DNA of 64,000 nucleotides from Bacillota bacterium (GTDB lineage: Bacteria > Bacillota > SHA-98 > Ch115): assembly GCA_013178415.1 (NCBI GenBank), contig JABLXA010000003.1, positions 64,815 through 128,814 of the forward strand. Reading direction: 5' to 3'. The notes below the pieces were generated by a model. That model had not been told where the DNA came from, searched no databases, and was given only the letters and a program-made list of their open reading frames with translations. Position 1 is the first letter of the stretch, and each line of letters starts with the position of its first letter. A program made the translations under genes and the position numbers. Shown piece by piece: positions 4,469 through 57,094 of the stretch.

Positions 4469-5254
4469 ATGAGAATTGCAGTAATCGGCGGAACGGGCGT
4501 TTTAAGTCCGGAAATGCTTGAGAATGTGCAGGAATCGAGAGTCTCCACCAGATATGGTGAGGTTGAGTTCAAGACTGGGATATGCCGGGGCGAAGAAGTG
4601 ATATTTATGGCAAGACATGGCGCAAGGCATACGATTCCCCCTCACCTTGTCAACTATCGGGCCAATATCGAGGCTTTGAGGCTGCTGGGAGTGACGAGGA
4701 TCATCGCTACATCAGCCGTAGGTTCCCTGAATCCTGAGATGAAGCCCGGTGATAGCGTAATCTTGGACCAATTCATAGATTTCACAAGGGGCAGGATCAG
4801 CACGTTCTTTGAAGGCGGCGAGATGGGGGTAGTTCACACAGATTTCACTGAACCTTATTGTCCTGAGATTCGCTCCTGTCTCATCAACGCCGCCCGATCG
4901 CTTGGCATCCCGGTTCATGAAAGAGGTTGCTATGTCGCAACTGAAGGACCACGTTTTGAAACGCCCGCAGAAATCAGGGCATTTCGCATCCTGGGCGGGG
5001 ATGTCGTAGGAATGACAAATGTACCGGAATGCGTCCTCGCGCGGGAAGCCAGCATTTGCTACGGGACCGTGGCTATAGTCACAAATTTCGCTGCAGGGAT
5101 TTCGCCCACGCCTCTGACCCATGAAGAGGTTGTCCAGGTTATGAAGGAGAATGGTGACAGGTTGAGAAATATCATCATAAATTCTATTGCCGCTCTGCCA
5201 CGGGAACGAAGGTGCCGATGCGGTCAGCATAAGGGGGCATTGGGTTGTGAGTGA
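4469..5254 (+). CDS. MTAP-family nucleoside phosphorylase, probably 6-oxopurine (methylthioinosine) specific
   Basis: Trimeric class II purine nucleoside phosphorylase family, which cleaves 5'-methylthio-nucleosides with phosphate to the base plus 5-methylthioribose-1-phosphate. Visible motifs are GGTGVLSPE, the phosphate-site MARHGARH, YVATEGPRFETPAEIR and GMTNVPE. Human MTAP has TDYD here, whose aspartates bind the 6-amino group of adenine. This protein has TNFA, with Asn as in 6-oxopurine enzymes. With the adjoining MTA deaminase this suggests a methylthioinosine substrate rather than MTA, which is inference. Two ATGs are possible. AAGGAG at 4453-4458 is too close to ATG 4460 and suits ATG 4469. 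The 3' end overlaps the deaminase by 8 bp. Confidence 0.88.
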   Translation: MRIAVIGGTGVLSPEMLENVQESRVSTRYGEVEFKTGICRGEEVIFMARHGARHTIPPHLVNYRANIEALRLLGVTRIIATSAVGSLNPEMKPGDSVILDQFIDFTRGRISTFFEGGEMGVVHTDFTEPYCPEIRSCLINAARSLGIPVHERGCYVATEGPRFETPAEIRAFRILGGDVVGMTNVPECVLAREASICYGTVAIVTNFAAGISPTPLTHEEVVQVMKENGDRLRNIIINSIAALPRERRCRCGQHKGALGCE

Positions 5255-50710: not shown

Positions 50711-52981
50711 TCAAGACATCACTGCACTTTTGATCCGTGACGCAAGCCCGCTATACCGGACAGCGGAACGGTCATTCCTTACCGCCATAGCTATTGCCTT
50801 TTTCGTGCCAACTAGGATCACTGCCCGCCTGGCCCTGGTAACAGCGGTATATAGGAGGTTCCTTTGCAGCATGATATAATGCTGTGTTGTGATGGGCATT
50901 ACCACCACCGGATATTCACTTCCCTGGCTCTTATGAACAGATGCAGCATATGCCAGCACCAGCTGGTCGACTTCCGCGCCCTCATATTCCACCTCCCTTG
51001 ATCCATCCTGATCAGAGAATCTCACCCCTAGAACCCTCTCCCTCGGATCTACATGGACCACTCTTCCGAGGTCTCCATTGTAGACCATCTTGTCATAGTT
51101 GTTTACAACCTGCATGACCTTGTCGCCCTGACGAAATATCATATTCTTGGCTTTTAATTCTGGCTTATGGCCAGCTGGCGGATTCAGCGCGTTCTGAAGG
51201 AGGTTATTCAATTCATCCACGCCTGTTATAGTCTTGCGCATAGGCGACAATACCTGGATATCGTCAAAAGGATCGCATTGCAGCCGCCCGGGGAGCTCGG
51301 TCTCCACCAGATCGCGAATCAGGCCAGGTATCTTTTGAGGATCTTCCTCCTCTATGAAAAGGAATTCCCCATAGCCGTCTTTGCCCCCTGCTAAGATCGG
51401 GAACTTGCCCTCATTGATGCGGTGAGCGTTAACGACTATCATGCTCTCCCTTGCCTGCCGGAAGATCTCTTTAAGCTCGATGACTGGTATCTCCCGGGAT
51501 GCGATTATATCCCTGAGCACCGCCCCCGGTCCCACGGATGGCAGCTGATCTTTGTCTCCCACAAGAAGAATGCGCATCCCCGGCCTTGTTGCCCTGAGGA
51601 AACTAGCCATGAGCGGCAAGTCTATCATGGAGACCTCGTCAAGGACCACTGCGTGCATATCAAGCGGACAATCTTCGTTCCTCTGAAACCGCATCACCCC
51701 ACCTTCGGGAGCGACTTCCAGAAGACGATGAAGAGTGCGCGCTTCTCTCCCTGTCGCCTCCTGAAGGCGTTTTGCCGCCCGTCCCGTGGGAGCCGCCAAA
51801 GCCACCTTCAGCCCCAGCGCCTCCAGGACCCGAACGACACTCCTGATAGTGGTTGTCTTGCCAGTCCCGGGCCCGCCAGTTAGGACCAGGACCCCGGAAC
51901 TCGCGATGCTTGAGACAGCCTTCTGCTGAAGTGGAGTAAGCTCGATACCAGCACTGCTCTTAAGCTGCGCCATGAGCTTCTCCACCGTCTGGAGGGGAGC
52001 GGCAGGCACCACGGGACCTCTCGCGAGAGCCACAAGCCGTTCTGCCGTCTCCGTCTCAGCGCGATGAAGCCAGTTGAGGTAGACTGGGGCCTCCGGGTCA
52101 ATATGTGGCCCGCCATCTGAGGCCGCTGCGACCGCCCACAGCCCTCCCGGCGCAGACATAGAAAAGCCCCGGTCTTCCACAGTGATCTCACGCTTGTTTG
52201 CAAGATACCTTATCGCATCCATCACCAGGCTCTCATCCGCCGACAGCAGATCCCTGGCGGCGGAGCGAAGCATTTCCAGGGGGTAATAAGCATGTCCATC
52301 TTCAGCCAGCAGCGAGAGGACATAGATGATCCCTGCACGGATACGCTCGGGAGCGGAAGGATCAATTCCCATCTTGAGGGCGATCGCGTCAGCCCGCTTG
52401 AATCCTATGCCATAAACATCGTCAGCCAGGCGGTACGGATTCTTCTTGATCACAGAAATAGCGTTGTCCCCGTACGTCCGATAGACTTTCACGGCGCAGG
52501 CGGGAGTCACCCCGATCCCAGCCAGGAACACCATGACCTTGTGGAGCTCTTTCTGCTTGCTGACCTCCGAGGCTATAGCCATAGCCTTTTTCATGCTGAG
52601 TCCTGGTATTTCGACAAGCCTCTGTGGGTCCTCCTCGATTACCTTTAGGGCATCTTCCCCTAATAGTTTCACGATCTTCTTAGCGGTAGCACGCCCGACC
52701 CCTCTTATGGCCCCAGAACCCAAATATGCCTCTATCCCCTGCGCAGTATTCGGCGCCACCGGGGCTGAATCTTCCACCTTGAATTGCCGGCCATATTGGG
52801 GATGAACCACCCAATCGCCATAAAAATCTCTCAGCTCGCCGGCTATCACCACGGGGAAAATGCCGACCGCCGTAGTCGACTGGGGGGCGCCATCCCCCTC
52901 GCATCTTATCCGTAACACGGAATAGCCCGTCTTCTCGTCCCGAAATGTTATCCGGTCTACGAAACCCCGGATTGACTCCAA
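50711..52981 (-). CDS. recD2: RecD2-type ATP-dependent DNA helicase
   Basis: 756-residue superfamily 1B 5'-3' helicase found outside RecBCD in Firmicutes. The N-terminal OB-like and helix-hairpin-helix region (GIEAYLGSGAIRGVGRATAK) is followed by Walker A GGPGTGKTTTIRSVV. Also present are VLDEVSMIDLPL, GDKDQLPSVGPG, the Gln motif EIFRQARESMIVVNAH and motif VI AYAASVHKSQGSEYP. TTG 52981 is chosen, with AGGAGGGG 6 nt upstream. It acts in recombination or repair. It is encoded upstream of comFA on the same strand. Confidence 0.94.
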   Translation of the reverse strand: MESIRGFVDRITFRDEKTGYSVLRIRCEGDGAPQSTTAVGIFPVVIAGELRDFYGDWVVHPQYGRQFKVEDSAPVAPNTAQGIEAYLGSGAIRGVGRATAKKIVKLLGEDALKVIEEDPQRLVEIPGLSMKKAMAIASEVSKQKELHKVMVFLAGIGVTPACAVKVYRTYGDNAISVIKKNPYRLADDVYGIGFKRADAIALKMGIDPSAPERIRAGIIYVLSLLAEDGHAYYPLEMLRSAARDLLSADESLVMDAIRYLANKREITVEDRGFSMSAPGGLWAVAAASDGGPHIDPEAPVYLNWLHRAETETAERLVALARGPVVPAAPLQTVEKLMAQLKSSAGIELTPLQQKAVSSIASSGVLVLTGGPGTGKTTTIRSVVRVLEALGLKVALAAPTGRAAKRLQEATGREARTLHRLLEVAPEGGVMRFQRNEDCPLDMHAVVLDEVSMIDLPLMASFLRATRPGMRILLVGDKDQLPSVGPGAVLRDIIASREIPVIELKEIFRQARESMIVVNAHRINEGKFPILAGGKDGYGEFLFIEEEDPQKIPGLIRDLVETELPGRLQCDPFDDIQVLSPMRKTITGVDELNNLLQNALNPPAGHKPELKAKNMIFRQGDKVMQVVNNYDKMVYNGDLGRVVHVDPRERVLGVRFSDQDGSREVEYEGAEVDQLVLAYAASVHKSQGSEYPVVVMPITTQHYIMLQRNLLYTAVTRARRAVILVGTKKAIAMAVRNDRSAVRYSGLASRIKSAVMS

Positions 52982-53065: not shown

Positions 53066-54298
53066 CTAGCTATTTAAAGGTAAGGTGAAATAAAATGAGG
53101 ACCCCTTCTCCTCCTGACTTTCAACCCATATCTTGCCACCGTGGGCCTCGACAATTCCCTTAGATATGGAAAGTCCAAGACCGAGTCCTGTTCCCGGTTC
53201 CCGGTCCTTGCCGCGCACAGGGCCAAAAGGCTCAAAGATGCTCTCAAGTCTCTCTTTCTTGATTCCCACGCCGCTGTCGGTTACCTCGACTTGCACATGG
53301 TCTCCCGCATGACTGGCCCGGACCAGGATCCTTCCCTCCGGCATTGTAAACTTGATAGCATTGTCAAGTAAGTTAGTAAGCACCTGATGAATTCGATCTC
53401 TATCCCACTTTCCCATAACAGGACCCGAGACTTGTACAGAAATCTCGATCTTCTTGGCGGATGCCAACGGCTTGACTTCCTGAACCACGCTACTGATAAC
53501 TTCGCACAAATCCATATCCCCGAGGTTCAATATCAATTCACTATGATGGATTTTCGCCATATCCAGGACATTGCTGATGATTCGCGCCATCCTAAGGATA
53601 TTCCGGTCGATCACCTCCAGAGCATCCCTCTGCCGTTCAGACAGATCGCCCATCCTTCCCTGAAGCAAAAGCTGGACATATGCCCTCACAGACGCAAGGG
53701 GGGTCCTCAATTCATGCGAGGCAACCGAAACATAGTCCAATTCCGGGATCCCCTGTCCATTATATCCTGTGGGCGCGGATCTTTCCAGTTCAAGGGGAAA
53801 TTCCTCTTGCATGCCGATGGGATTTTCGATAGGTCTCTCGGGAGAAAGGAGCGCCAGAGTTTGGGATGATGTTCGTATCTTCGTCATTTCCTTTAGAATG
53901 AACATCATACAATCCGCAAAAGCCGCCAACGCGGGCTCGTCCCCATCTTTTGGTCTGAGTTCCTTCCCGCCGGCCAGGACGAACACCCCCACGACGCGAC
54001 CTCCATCTATTAAAGGGACGGCCCTCAGGGGCGATGGGCTCCCCACTCTGAAGAGTCTCAACATCGCGCTTCTGAGCCCTTCATCTATATCCGCCGCAAA
54101 ACCGGAAATAACCTTTTGGTCAATGCCAAAAGAAGCGGCTATGTTAAAGGAATAATCCCCTCTGATGAGCAGCAAGACCCCCCTGGATGCTCCCATAAGA
54201 GAACCTGCCGATCTCAGAACCACGTCCAGGATCGCCTTGAGGAGCTTGAGGGGGGCGACGAGACCTCCAGAATTTATTGCGAAATTGGCGTCCGTCAT
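53066..54298 (-). CDS. Cytosolic GAF-like sensor histidine kinase
   Basis: 410 residues with no membrane segment. Residues about 15-145 look like a GAF-type sensor (ASRGVLLLIRGDYSFNIAAS, AVPLIDGGRVVGVFVLAGG). The HisKA domain has the phosphoacceptor H195 in VASHELRTPLASVRAYVQLL. HATPase_c is complete, with N box LTNLLDNAIKFT, G1 VTDSGVGI and G2 GTGLGLGLSISKGIVEAHGG. Its ATG overlaps the REC-KaiC stop (ATGA). The signal is probably a cytosolic small molecule. Because the coupled receiver lacks its phosphoacceptor Asp, its phosphotransfer partner may be elsewhere. Confidence 0.9.
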   Translation of the reverse strand: MTDANFAINSGGLVAPLKLLKAILDVVLRSAGSLMGASRGVLLLIRGDYSFNIAASFGIDQKVISGFAADIDEGLRSAMLRLFRVGSPSPLRAVPLIDGGRVVGVFVLAGGKELRPKDGDEPALAAFADCMMFILKEMTKIRTSSQTLALLSPERPIENPIGMQEEFPLELERSAPTGYNGQGIPELDYVSVASHELRTPLASVRAYVQLLLQGRMGDLSERQRDALEVIDRNILRMARIISNVLDMAKIHHSELILNLGDMDLCEVISSVVQEVKPLASAKKIEISVQVSGPVMGKWDRDRIHQVLTNLLDNAIKFTMPEGRILVRASHAGDHVQVEVTDSGVGIKKERLESIFEPFGPVRGKDREPGTGLGLGLSISKGIVEAHGGKIWVESQEEKGSSFYFTLPLNS

Positions 54299-55365
54299 GG
54301 CATATTCACCAGCGGATTTAGTCTGATGCCATCTTGGGTGATCTCGAGACGATGTTCACCGGGAAGGTAATTGCTGCCGCGCAGCTTTTGGATGCGCAAT
54401 AGCCTTAGATCCTCATCACCGATGTTCCTATTTTCCAGCCAGATGATCCCATCAGCGGCGGCAGCCTCAGGAACCACATCAATGGCAGTCTCGGAATATT
54501 CACCAACCCAGAGGGCAGTCAAGGAATAAGCGGAAAAAAGGCGAACAATGCCAAACAATGTTTTACGATACTCCACCATCGAGGGGGAAAAAGTGCGCAA
54601 TGATCTGAAGCTGTCGATGGCGATGATCTTGGGGAAATTGCTCCTCACTATGTCCATGATAATTTCAGGGAGGCACGAAATACCCTCGCGTACGAGCCTA
54701 TCACTGACATCGAGGAATTTGACATTTCGGGTCATCTTATCAGGATCGAAAAAAGAAAATCTTTGAACATACCTGACTGCCTTTTCGAGGCCCTCCCATG
54801 GGGCCGTCACGTAGGCGGCAGGAAACTCGTCGCTGGCGTTGGAAAAGAGTATCTGCTGAGCCAATACTGACTTGCCTGTCCCGAACGCTCCTGCAATCAA
54901 GTGAATGGCATTGACAGGCAGGCCGCCGCCCAATACCGCATCCAGATTCTTATCACCAGTCGCGAGACGCTGCCAAGATGACGCATGGAGGTCTCTGGAC
55001 CGCTGGGTGAGCTCCTTGACAGTCATGACAAACTGCGCTTCATCCATTGGCTTCAAGAGGAAGGCATCTGCTCCCGCCTCACGCGATCGCTGCCTTACCA
55101 TGAGCTCGCTGAATACCAGAATCGGTATCTTACCGGTCCTCGGATCATCCTTGAGGCGACGGCAAAGGCTCAATCCGTCCATGCCGGACAATAATATCTC
55201 AGTGATCACAAGATCAGGGCCCAGCTGAGCCGCCTTCTCCGCAGCAGACTCCCCATCGCCGGCAGTCTCAACACGGAATCCCTCGGCCTCTAAGATGCGC
55301 CGTTCCAGCGAAGACATGCGAGAATCATTTTCGACCACCAGTATGAGCGGTGCATGTTCTGGCAT
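54295..55365 (-). CDS. Receiver domain fused to KaiC/RadA-like ATPase, with Glu at the phosphoacceptor position
   Basis: 356 residues. Residues 6-122 form a REC domain, but the usual phospho-Asp is E56 (PDLVITEILLSGMDG). The acidic pocket is altered (VVEND in place of VVDDE), while the switch Ser (FSE) and K105 (LLKP) remain. Residues about 133-350 are a RecA/KaiC-family ATPase with LDAVLGGGLPVNAIHLIAG, Walker A GAFGTGKS (159-166) and Walker B KIIAIDSFRSL. The receiver may be locked in an active-like or phosphorylation-independent state. ATG 55365 is chosen (AGGG 5 nt upstream). It lies 3' of a c-di-GMP riboswitch leader. Confidence 0.85.
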   Translation of the reverse strand: MPEHAPLILVVENDSRMSSLERRILEAEGFRVETAGDGESAAEKAAQLGPDLVITEILLSGMDGLSLCRRLKDDPRTGKIPILVFSELMVRQRSREAGADAFLLKPMDEAQFVMTVKELTQRSRDLHASSWQRLATGDKNLDAVLGGGLPVNAIHLIAGAFGTGKSVLAQQILFSNASDEFPAAYVTAPWEGLEKAVRYVQRFSFFDPDKMTRNVKFLDVSDRLVREGISCLPEIIMDIVRSNFPKIIAIDSFRSLRTFSPSMVEYRKTLFGIVRLFSAYSLTALWVGEYSETAIDVVPEAAAADGIIWLENRNIGDEDLRLLRIQKLRGSNYLPGEHRLEITQDGIRLNPLVNMP

Positions 55366-55581
55366 CACATCCCTATCCTTTCCTGAAAGCGATATCTGGA
55401 TTGCCTGAATGAGCTAGTGCGCGATGCCGGAAACCTTTACCCATCTAATCTTTCAATGATCACAGAGAAAATCCTGCATAGCGAGCCAGTTTCGGCGGAG
55501 AAGTGGAAGTCCTGGCCGATCTTCAGATATAGGCGCCGGGTCCCAACGCGTGATTCCCAGGGGCCGAGGCTGTAACGCTCA

Positions 55582-55682
55582 CAACAAAAATCGGGGTCGA
55601 AAGGTCCGGGCTCTTGGGTGGGGCGGGAAGTGCGCGCTCCTTCCATGGGAGGAAGCGCAGACCCGAGCCCTTTTCGACCCCG
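55582..55682 (-). terminator. Second terminator-like hairpin in the riboswitch leader
   Basis: CGGGGTCGAAA (55592-55602) pairs with TTTCGACCCCG (55672-55682). GGGCTC (55608-55613) pairs with GAGCCC (55665-55670), and the apex has a GCGC-bounded hairpin. On the reverse strand it is followed by ATTTTTGTTG. It is larger than a usual terminator and could also bind a protein or act in antitermination. Confidence 0.55.
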
Positions 55683-55689
55683 ACGCTTT

Positions 55690-55737
55690 GATCGAAAAAT
55701 AAAACCTGCCCGGGAATTGCCATACCCGTAAAGCAGG
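55690..55737 (-). terminator. Riboswitch expression-platform terminator
   Basis: On the reverse strand, CCTGC (55737-55733) pairs with GCAGG (55709-55705), and CGGG (55728-55725) pairs with CCCG (55714-55711). TTTTATTTTT follows. The 3'-arm sequence CCGGGCAGG recurs just after the aptamer (55771-55763), where it can pair with the same CCTGC to prevent termination. Confidence 0.75.
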
Positions 55738-55762
55738 TGAGCAAACTCAAGGGAACCCTATT

Positions 55763-55886
55763 CCTGCCCGGCTTCCGGCAACCCGGCTATCATAGCCGAC
55801 CATCGCATATTATGCGTGGCTGTTGGCTTTAGACCCGTGGCTTTGCGTCCCCGCCTTTTGGACGGATTTGCCTTTATCTGATCCGG
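55763..55886 (-). promoter_or_regulatory. Cyclic di-GMP-I (GEMM-I) riboswitch aptamer
   Basis: On the reverse strand the conserved blocks appear in order: GGCAAATCC (55872-55864), a short stem-loop CCGTC/GGCGG, GGACGCAAAGCCACGGG (about 55851-55835) with CTAA, then TATGATAGCCGGGTTGCCG (55794-55776). These match the class I c-di-GMP aptamer core. By hand alignment to the Vibrio Vc2 aptamer, the position equivalent to G20 is G, which favours c-di-GMP over cGAMP. P1 can form from TCCGG and CCGGA. The downstream terminator/antiterminator supports a transcriptional switch. The nearest gene in the right direction is REC-KaiC. Confidence 0.88.
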
Positions 55887-55918: not shown

Positions 55919-57094
55919 TCAGAAGATCCTCTCGAACCTCAGCCCGCGCCAGATAGAGCGAGCCTTGGCCACAATATTGGTTCGCTGATTCGATGCAATA
56001 TCATAATATCCACCGTTCAAAGGAAGATATTCACTATTGGACCTCATGGAATCTTCGGCCCGGTCAAGCACGCGCACCACGGCAAGGCCATTTTTGCCAT
56101 CAGTGAGCGGTTCTTTGCCTTCCTCTATACATTCTATAAAATGAAGGCATTGATTCCTCAAAGGTTCACTTGCCTGTATCTTGGGAATCGTCACAGCAGG
56201 CATCCGATCTCGGCCGCCCTCGGCGCCGCCGACAAGGTTCTTGACCCGCTCTTTATTGTCTCGAAGACTATCTCCTGAGTTCCTCACTACAGGTATTGGA
56301 ACCGGGGAGGCGAAATTTGGATTTTCCACGCCGTTATTGTAAATCTTAACCTTTTCCTGAGGATCGACATCATCAAAAATCGCCATCCGATTGCGTCCTA
56401 CGATAACGGTGGTGCTTGCCTTCCTAGGCTCAGCCCAGCTAACGTGGATATTAGCGATGATATTGTTCTGAAACCGCAGGGAGAGAAATGCCATATCCTC
56501 CAGCCTCGGATTCATAAAGGCCTGGCCGCCAGCAGATACGTGGGTGGGCTCTTCGCCAAGAAGATAAAGGAGGATCGCCACATCATGGGGAGCCTTATCC
56601 CAAAGCACACTCACGTCATTTCTGATGAGGCCGAGACTTGTCCTGATTGAACGTATGTAGCATACGGGTCCTAGTTCACCTGATTGAATATACTCTTTTA
56701 TCAACTGTATCCCTGGGTGATATGCAAGGATGTGTCCGACCATGAGCACCTTGCCGGTTTTCTGTGATAGGGCCACGAGCTCTTCGGCGTCTACCGGGGA
56801 GAGGGTGAAGGGTTTTTCCACAAGCACATGCTTTCCACGCAGCAGACAAGTTCGGGCTATCTGGTAATGGGTAGCAGGTGGTGTCGCAACAACTACTGCA
56901 TCGATTTTAGGATTTGAGGCTATTTCATTAAAATCATTCGTAACCTTTATCAATGGATGATGCTCTTTTATCTGCCTCAGAACCCCATCTCTCTTGTCGC
57001 AGCATCCTACAAGCTTTGCAGACGGGAGTTCGCTCAAATTACGAAGATAATTTCGGCCCCAGTTTCCGCAACCAATTAGAGCGACGTTTATCAA
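55919..57094 (-). CDS. Gfo/Idh/MocA family oxidoreductase, nucleotide-sugar type
   Basis: 391 residues. The N-terminal NAD(P) fold has VALIGCGNWGRNYLRNLSEL, then VVVATPPATHYQIARTCL and the catalytic-type GKHVLVEKPFTLS. The C-terminal domain (WDKAPHDVAILLYLLGEEP) carries a His near the expected catalytic place. It resembles dehydrogenases acting on UDP-amino sugars or related polysaccharide precursors. Proximity to galE and the envelope cluster fits polysaccharide synthesis. The substrate is not determined. Confidence 0.85.
   Translation of the reverse strand: MINVALIGCGNWGRNYLRNLSELPSAKLVGCCDKRDGVLRQIKEHHPLIKVTNDFNEIASNPKIDAVVVATPPATHYQIARTCLLRGKHVLVEKPFTLSPVDAEELVALSQKTGKVLMVGHILAYHPGIQLIKEYIQSGELGPVCYIRSIRTSLGLIRNDVSVLWDKAPHDVAILLYLLGEEPTHVSAGGQAFMNPRLEDMAFLSLRFQNNIIANIHVSWAEPRKASTTVIVGRNRMAIFDDVDPQEKVKIYNNGVENPNFASPVPIPVVRNSGDSLRDNKERVKNLVGGAEGGRDRMPAVTIPKIQASEPLRNQCLHFIECIEEGKEPLTDGKNGLAVVRVLDRAEDSMRSNSEYLPLNGGYYDIASNQRTNIVAKARSIWRGLRFERIF

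Follow-up and report, generated by a model that had tools for sequence, protein, structure and literature searches.

A probably inherited c-di-GMP-I riboswitch beside a putatively σH-driven REC-KaiC/histidine kinase module in an uncultured Bacillota lineage

The c-di-GMP riboswitch in the 64-kb stretch of DNA analysed here (the window, from genome G000) is probably an inherited attenuator, turned off by c-di-GMP, that now stands beside a σH-driven stationary-phase and sporulation signalling module. The window aptamer would be the riboswitch that fronts a Tad/Flp pilus operon in a sister family, still at its position next to metK-Gfo/Idh, while the pilus operon between aptamer and recD2 would have been replaced by a module of a receiver protein, with or without a KaiC domain, and a histidine kinase (REC(-KaiC)-HK). 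With c-di-GMP bound, the closing stem of the aptamer would hold GGGUUGCC and a first terminator, T1, would end transcription. Without c-di-GMP, GGGUUGCC would pair with the T1 loop GGCAAUUCC, T1 would be opened and the RNA would continue, in G000 only as far as a second terminator, T2. For the module itself, most transcription would start at a σH promoter that belongs to it and sits past T2, ahead of the start codon, and the module would therefore be on at the transition to stationary phase and sporulation, largely independently of the riboswitch. The features of the locus are listed in Table 1.

Table 1. Features of the riboswitch and REC-KaiC/histidine kinase locus, in positions of the window
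Feature	Position	Strand	Basis
recD2, syntenic anchor downstream of the module	50711..52981	-	TIGR01448, 848 bits
Cytosolic GAF histidine kinase, 410 aa	53066..54298	-	Pfam and alignment
REC-KaiC, 357 aa	ORF 54295..55368, ATG at 55365	-	Pfam and alignments
Putative σH-type promoter AGGATTT-N13-TGAAA, upstream of REC-KaiC	55451..55475	-	motif scan
T2, long terminator-like hairpin followed by UUUUU, between T1 and REC-KaiC	55586..55683	-	fold
C-rich motif ACTTCCCGCCCCACCCAA within T2	55614..55631	-	identical in G001
T1, expression-platform terminator, CCUGC..UGGCAA..GGCAGG + UUUUAUUUUU	55695..55737	-	fold
Predicted antiterminator	55717..55784	-	forced fold
c-di-GMP-I (GEMM-I) riboswitch aptamer	55774..55882	-	RF01051, 73.1 bits, E 2e-12
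Gfo/Idh/MocA oxidoreductase, syntenic anchor upstream of the aptamer	55919..57094	-	

Gene order was compared in G001, the one further member of the family of G000 among the genomes covered, in G002, from a second family of the same order, and in a sister family of the same class. In the sister family, G005, with one contig across the whole stretch, was read closely, and G004 and G010 in part. G001 has metK-Gfo/Idh-aptamer-REC-KaiC-HK-recD2 as in the window, and G002 has metK-Gfo/Idh-aptamer-REC-GAF-PAS-HK-REC-recD2, without KaiC. The order in the sister family is metK-Gfo/Idh-DegS-like HK-NarL-like response regulator-aptamer-T1-Flp/Tad pilus operon-recD2, whereas the window has no pilus operon between aptamer and recD2 and carries REC(-KaiC)-HK in its place. 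An aptamer kept upstream of REC-KaiC, which the earlier note proposed to look for in relatives, was present in G001, with HK following, and not in the sister family, where the aptamer precedes Tad genes. Aptamers of this kind are widely associated with Tad genes in other families, and in G001 and G003 Tad genes are fronted by an additional aptamer. The Tad operon was taken as the older cargo because it is the usual neighbour of the aptamer in those other families, a polarity that is not tree-based, and the replacement would then have run from pilus operon to REC-KaiC-HK. The window genome’s own Flp/Tad locus on contig C16 (L133, 2900-10555) has no RF01051 match and is preceded by a gene for a GGDEF protein. 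Between Gfo/Idh and the aptamer of G002, a truncated NarL-type receiver fragment was recognised by eye (L054, G002:C85, about 4985-5099), apparently a remnant of the response regulator gene of the sister family. The anchor oxidoreductase belongs to a large paralogous family, with forty tblastn-level Gfo/Idh matches in the 3.6-Mb genome of G000.

The aptamer, which had been proposed on the reverse strand, was confirmed by the Rfam search with a score far above the RF01051 gathering cut-off of 35 bits, spanning model positions 1-87 of 87. This match is the only one at gathering threshold to any Rfam family in the window, and no second RF01051 match occurs in the whole window genome. The blocks AAAGGCAAA, GACGCAAAG and GGGUUGCC, which hold the ligand-contact nucleotides, are all there, and the equivalents of G20, A47 and C92 (numbering of the Vc2 structure) are retained in an alignment with seven relatives. 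G20 separates c-di-GMP-I aptamers from the cGAMP type, which have A20, and its retention rules the latter out. A GNRA tetraloop with its receptor was not found in the window aptamer in this alignment; the loop at the GNRA position is GAAA in 7/7 relatives and a CAAAA pentaloop in the window. The tetraloop-receptor contact is not known to be essential to the c-di-GMP-I class. Eight matches to GGDEF domains in the genome make c-di-GMP plausible as the ligand, to which the window aptamer would be expected to respond. The aptamer seems to be maintained by selection, to judge from the comparison of G000 with G001, in which it is 69% identical while the spacers reach 30-32%, and in which U22-A45 of G001 replaces C22-G45, a compensatory base-pair change; G001 also has one core change without compensation. 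The aptamer of G001 (L053 5328-5230, G001:C172) carries the core changes GGUAAA and GGGGCAC, two of its changes restoring a pair, and in Rfam it matches RF03167, the variant family c-di-GMP-I-GGC, better than any other.

A terminator after the aptamer had likewise been proposed, and T1 at 55737-55695 fits this description with a fold of -16.4 kcal/mol (z -2.25) and corresponding CCTG..GGCAAC..CAGG terminators in relatives. A standard terminator scan overlooked both T1 and T2, which have loops or bulges larger than it allows. The predicted antiterminator consists of two pairings, one of GGGUUGCC (the 3' strand of the aptamer, 55784-55777) with the loop of T1, GGCAAUUCC (from 55721), the other of GGGCAGG (55769-55763) with CCUGC (55737-55733). 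The G000 leader folds at -67.3 kcal/mol with the terminator vs -64.6 kcal/mol with the antiterminator, the latter being a single alternative obtained by forcing UUGCC:GGCAA, also with GCAGG:CCUGC. The same competition for the P1 strand is possible in G002 and the Tad loci where the loop reads GGCAA or GGUAA, at a cost of 3 to ~10 kcal/mol. T1 is intact in G000 and G002; that of G001 has diverged and lacks the GGCAA complement. Given this competition, termination is predicted in the presence of c-di-GMP, and the modelled folds thus suggest an OFF switch. In the sister family (L122 5725-6150, L123), CCGAAGAGA, directly behind the aptamer, and TCTCTTCGG, directly behind T1, are complementary and together would enclose T1 in a longer stem.

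T2, which like the σH-type box and the Glu of the receiver is absent from the earlier note, has a predicted fold of -50.7 kcal/mol (z -3.57), a stability that no shuffle out of 200 reached, and would act as a second terminator. A hairpin of like shape and energy occurs in G001 without a U-tract, and the terminator scan placed a second terminator in G002 at L054 5650-5672. The C-rich motif within T2 is identical at 18/18 positions between G000 and G001, while neighbouring spacers are ~30% identical, and among 61 genomes it occurs on an aptamer contig only in these two. Other matches in the 61 genomes, with 2 mismatches allowed, were at chance level and mostly coding, and a search of viral contigs gave just two overlapping, unrelated phage fragments. 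The T2 region had no match in Rfam at E up to 5, and T2 was accordingly rejected as a known RNA family; a covariance model of T2, run on 200 genomes sampled from the phylum without G001, found no copy but T2 itself. A C-rich element shared with G002 was dismissed as not significant, 26/500 shuffles being as good. In G001 the motif lies at L053 about 5080-5063, and the enclosing hairpins of the two genomes differ widely in their outer stems. In both G000 and G001 its complement, GGG-N5-GGG-T-GGGG-C-GGG, might form a G-quadruplex on the opposite strand. The T2 hairpin and its invariant C-rich motif are the least explained part of the locus.

Between T2 and REC-KaiC, the motif AGGATTT-N13-TGAAA would be expected 0.01 times in the window, and the pattern AGGAYTT-N13-KGAAW has 41 matches in G000-G003 vs 8 for the reversed pattern (fivefold). 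It occurs just upstream of all three REC(-KaiC)-HK loci, in G000, G001 and G002 (in the last at G002:C85:43874). In B. subtilis, spoVG, spoVS and minC are σH targets. The motif also precedes spoVG and spoVS, each in G002 and G003, as well as minC; the minC matches are in G000 and G001, and that of G001 lies at the end of the preceding ORF. The N13 spacing is identical at the three module loci and the same as in the spoVG, spoVS and minC motifs, and the box is 79% identical between G000 and G001. The -35 element fits the consensus in G000 and G001 and has one mismatch in G002; at -10, G000 and G001 have GAAA where G002 has GAAT. To our knowledge, REC-KaiC is no recorded σH target. The published σH consensus is RNAGGAWWW/RNNGAATWW, and spoVS is σH-dependent (PMC8510167); GAAA rather than GAAT at -10 in G000 and G001 is a weakness of the assignment. 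The SigH profile scored above its cut-off in G000-G003 and a Spo0A gene is present; with the motif upstream, this makes REC(-KaiC)-HK a probable member of the σH regulon, and the module would use this promoter. A guess in the earlier note that the locus serves development or sporulation thereby gains independent support from a conserved promoter motif.

The next gene after the aptamer was correctly described as a receiver-KaiC fusion overlapping a histidine kinase gene: Pfam places Response_reg (E 1.1e-19) and the KaiC ATPase (E 1.6e-25; PF06745, 90 bits) in REC-KaiC, a predicted ATPase with the Walker A motif GAFGTGKS, and the two genes share 4 nt (ATGA). The kinase has strong HisKA and HATPase_c matches and an intact H-box, SHELRTPL. 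Described earlier as soluble and GAF-like, it is cytosolic, and its GAF domain is marginal in G000 (E 3e-4) and better supported in G001. REC-KaiC of G001 is 54-56% identical to that of the window, and a wider search of the named genomes returned only G001 and, from an actinobacterium, two separate genes that have no riboswitch. At the phospho-acceptor position of the receiver (end of beta-3), both family members have Glu57, and G002 and L073 have Asp. Switching of the REC-KaiC receiver by Asp phosphorylation is thus unlikely, contrary to the phospho-signalling receiver envisaged earlier. A phosphorelay role of the kinase module, e.g. towards Spo0A, would be a guess.

Some observations count against our main reading: REC-KaiC is the next co-oriented gene after the aptamer in two genera, as is REC-HK in the second family, and an aptamer so clearly under selection would be odd if it controlled nothing. 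A leader with two inputs, in which the riboswitch attenuates a vegetative transcript reaching REC-KaiC-HK and the σH promoter supplies further expression as sporulation begins, would let the module combine second-messenger and developmental inputs, and we regard it as possible but doubtful. It accounts for the conserved adjacency and orientation, for a T1 that looks functional with a competing antiterminator and for the selection on the aptamer in both genera, and it resembles cmrRST of C. difficile, where several promoters follow a c-di-GMP riboswitch (PMC8844915). On the other hand, T2 in the window, or the second terminator in G002, lies between T1 and the gene, the leaders measure 400-570 nt, and the Bc1 riboswitch of B. 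thuringiensis offers a precedent for a T1 whose response to c-di-GMP is hidden by a second terminator (PMC11218506). As the hairpin of G001 has no U-tract, read-through into REC-KaiC is possible in that genome. Only tentatively would we propose that the riboswitch, its cargo swapped, gives the σH-driven pseudo-receiver-KaiC/kinase module a c-di-GMP input, through conditional read-through or a riboswitch-gated small RNA ending at T2, and so would couple c-di-GMP to sporulation entry. Control of KaiC by c-di-GMP is possible, and control of REC-KaiC is less likely than adjacency implies; the riboswitch control claimed in the earlier note is not supported. The T2 hairpin and σH motif lie between platform and gene, and two observations were made that the note itself would count as refuting: the orthologous aptamer precedes Tad pilus genes in the sister family, and REC-KaiC has a promoter motif of its own.

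The aptamer might also act without a coding target. A short non-coding RNA ending at T2 seems an improbable present target of the riboswitch; its read-through hairpin would display the C-rich ACUUCCCGCCCCACCCAA, which could pair with G-rich ribosome-binding sites. The motif is invariant across two genera although the spacers are saturated, it sits in hairpins alike in shape and energy with largely different outer stem sequence, and G000 and G002 share the T1-to-T2 architecture; yet the missing U-tract in G001, the weak similarity of the C-rich stretch in G002 and the lack of any further copy in the 200 phylum genomes or of an Rfam match argue otherwise. It is similarly unlikely that the riboswitch serves the metK-Gfo/Idh transcript as a 3'-end element dependent on c-di-GMP and has no downstream coding target: the aptamer begins 37 nt past the Gfo/Idh stop codon and a crude scan found no σA-type promoter between them, but the distance is larger in the sister family and in G002. 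Least of all do we expect a decaying relic. The lost GNRA loop of the window and the diverged T1 of G001 would suit one, but a dead relic was rejected in view of the conserved aptamer with its compensatory change from C-G to U-A; T1, intact in G000 and G002, also speaks against it.

The locus shows how adjacency misleads in riboswitch target assignment, the same syntenic aptamer being followed by pilus genes in one family and, in another, by a signalling module that has a promoter motif of its own. The probable σH regulon of this uncultured lineage also gains a REC-KaiC/kinase module not described before, a testable lead on sporulation control and, should the riboswitch reach KaiC after all, c-di-GMP would feed into the sporulation decision.

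In the literature collection searched, no paper contained both 'c-di-GMP riboswitch' and 'KaiC', and the pairing therefore looks undescribed within it, as the earlier note supposed; for a two-component system preceded by a c-di-GMP riboswitch, cmrRST of C. difficile is an existing example (PMC8844915). There, too, response-regulator and kinase genes lie downstream and the leader has extra promoters, but cmrRST has a class II, ON-type c-di-GMP riboswitch, an invertible switch and DNA-binding regulators, and no KaiC. The c-di-GMP-I riboswitch of B. thuringiensis Bc1, with its masked T1 response, shares a class I aptamer, a long expression platform and the succession of T1 and T2 before the gene (PMC11218506); the window differs in its much longer T2, in the smaller distance from T1 to T2 and in the σH motif that comes after T2. 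RF01051 riboswitches before Tad/Flp operons of Bacillota share the aptamer class, a T1 with a GGCAA(C) loop and, in the sister family, the metK-Gfo/Idh neighbourhood, and the window differs from them in having no pilus operon and, after the aptamer, the REC-KaiC/HK module, a second terminator and the σH motif. With promoters of the σH (Spo0H) regulon such as those of spoVG, spoVS and minC in these genomes, the window locus has AGGA(T/C)TT-N13-(T/G)GAA(A/T) in common.
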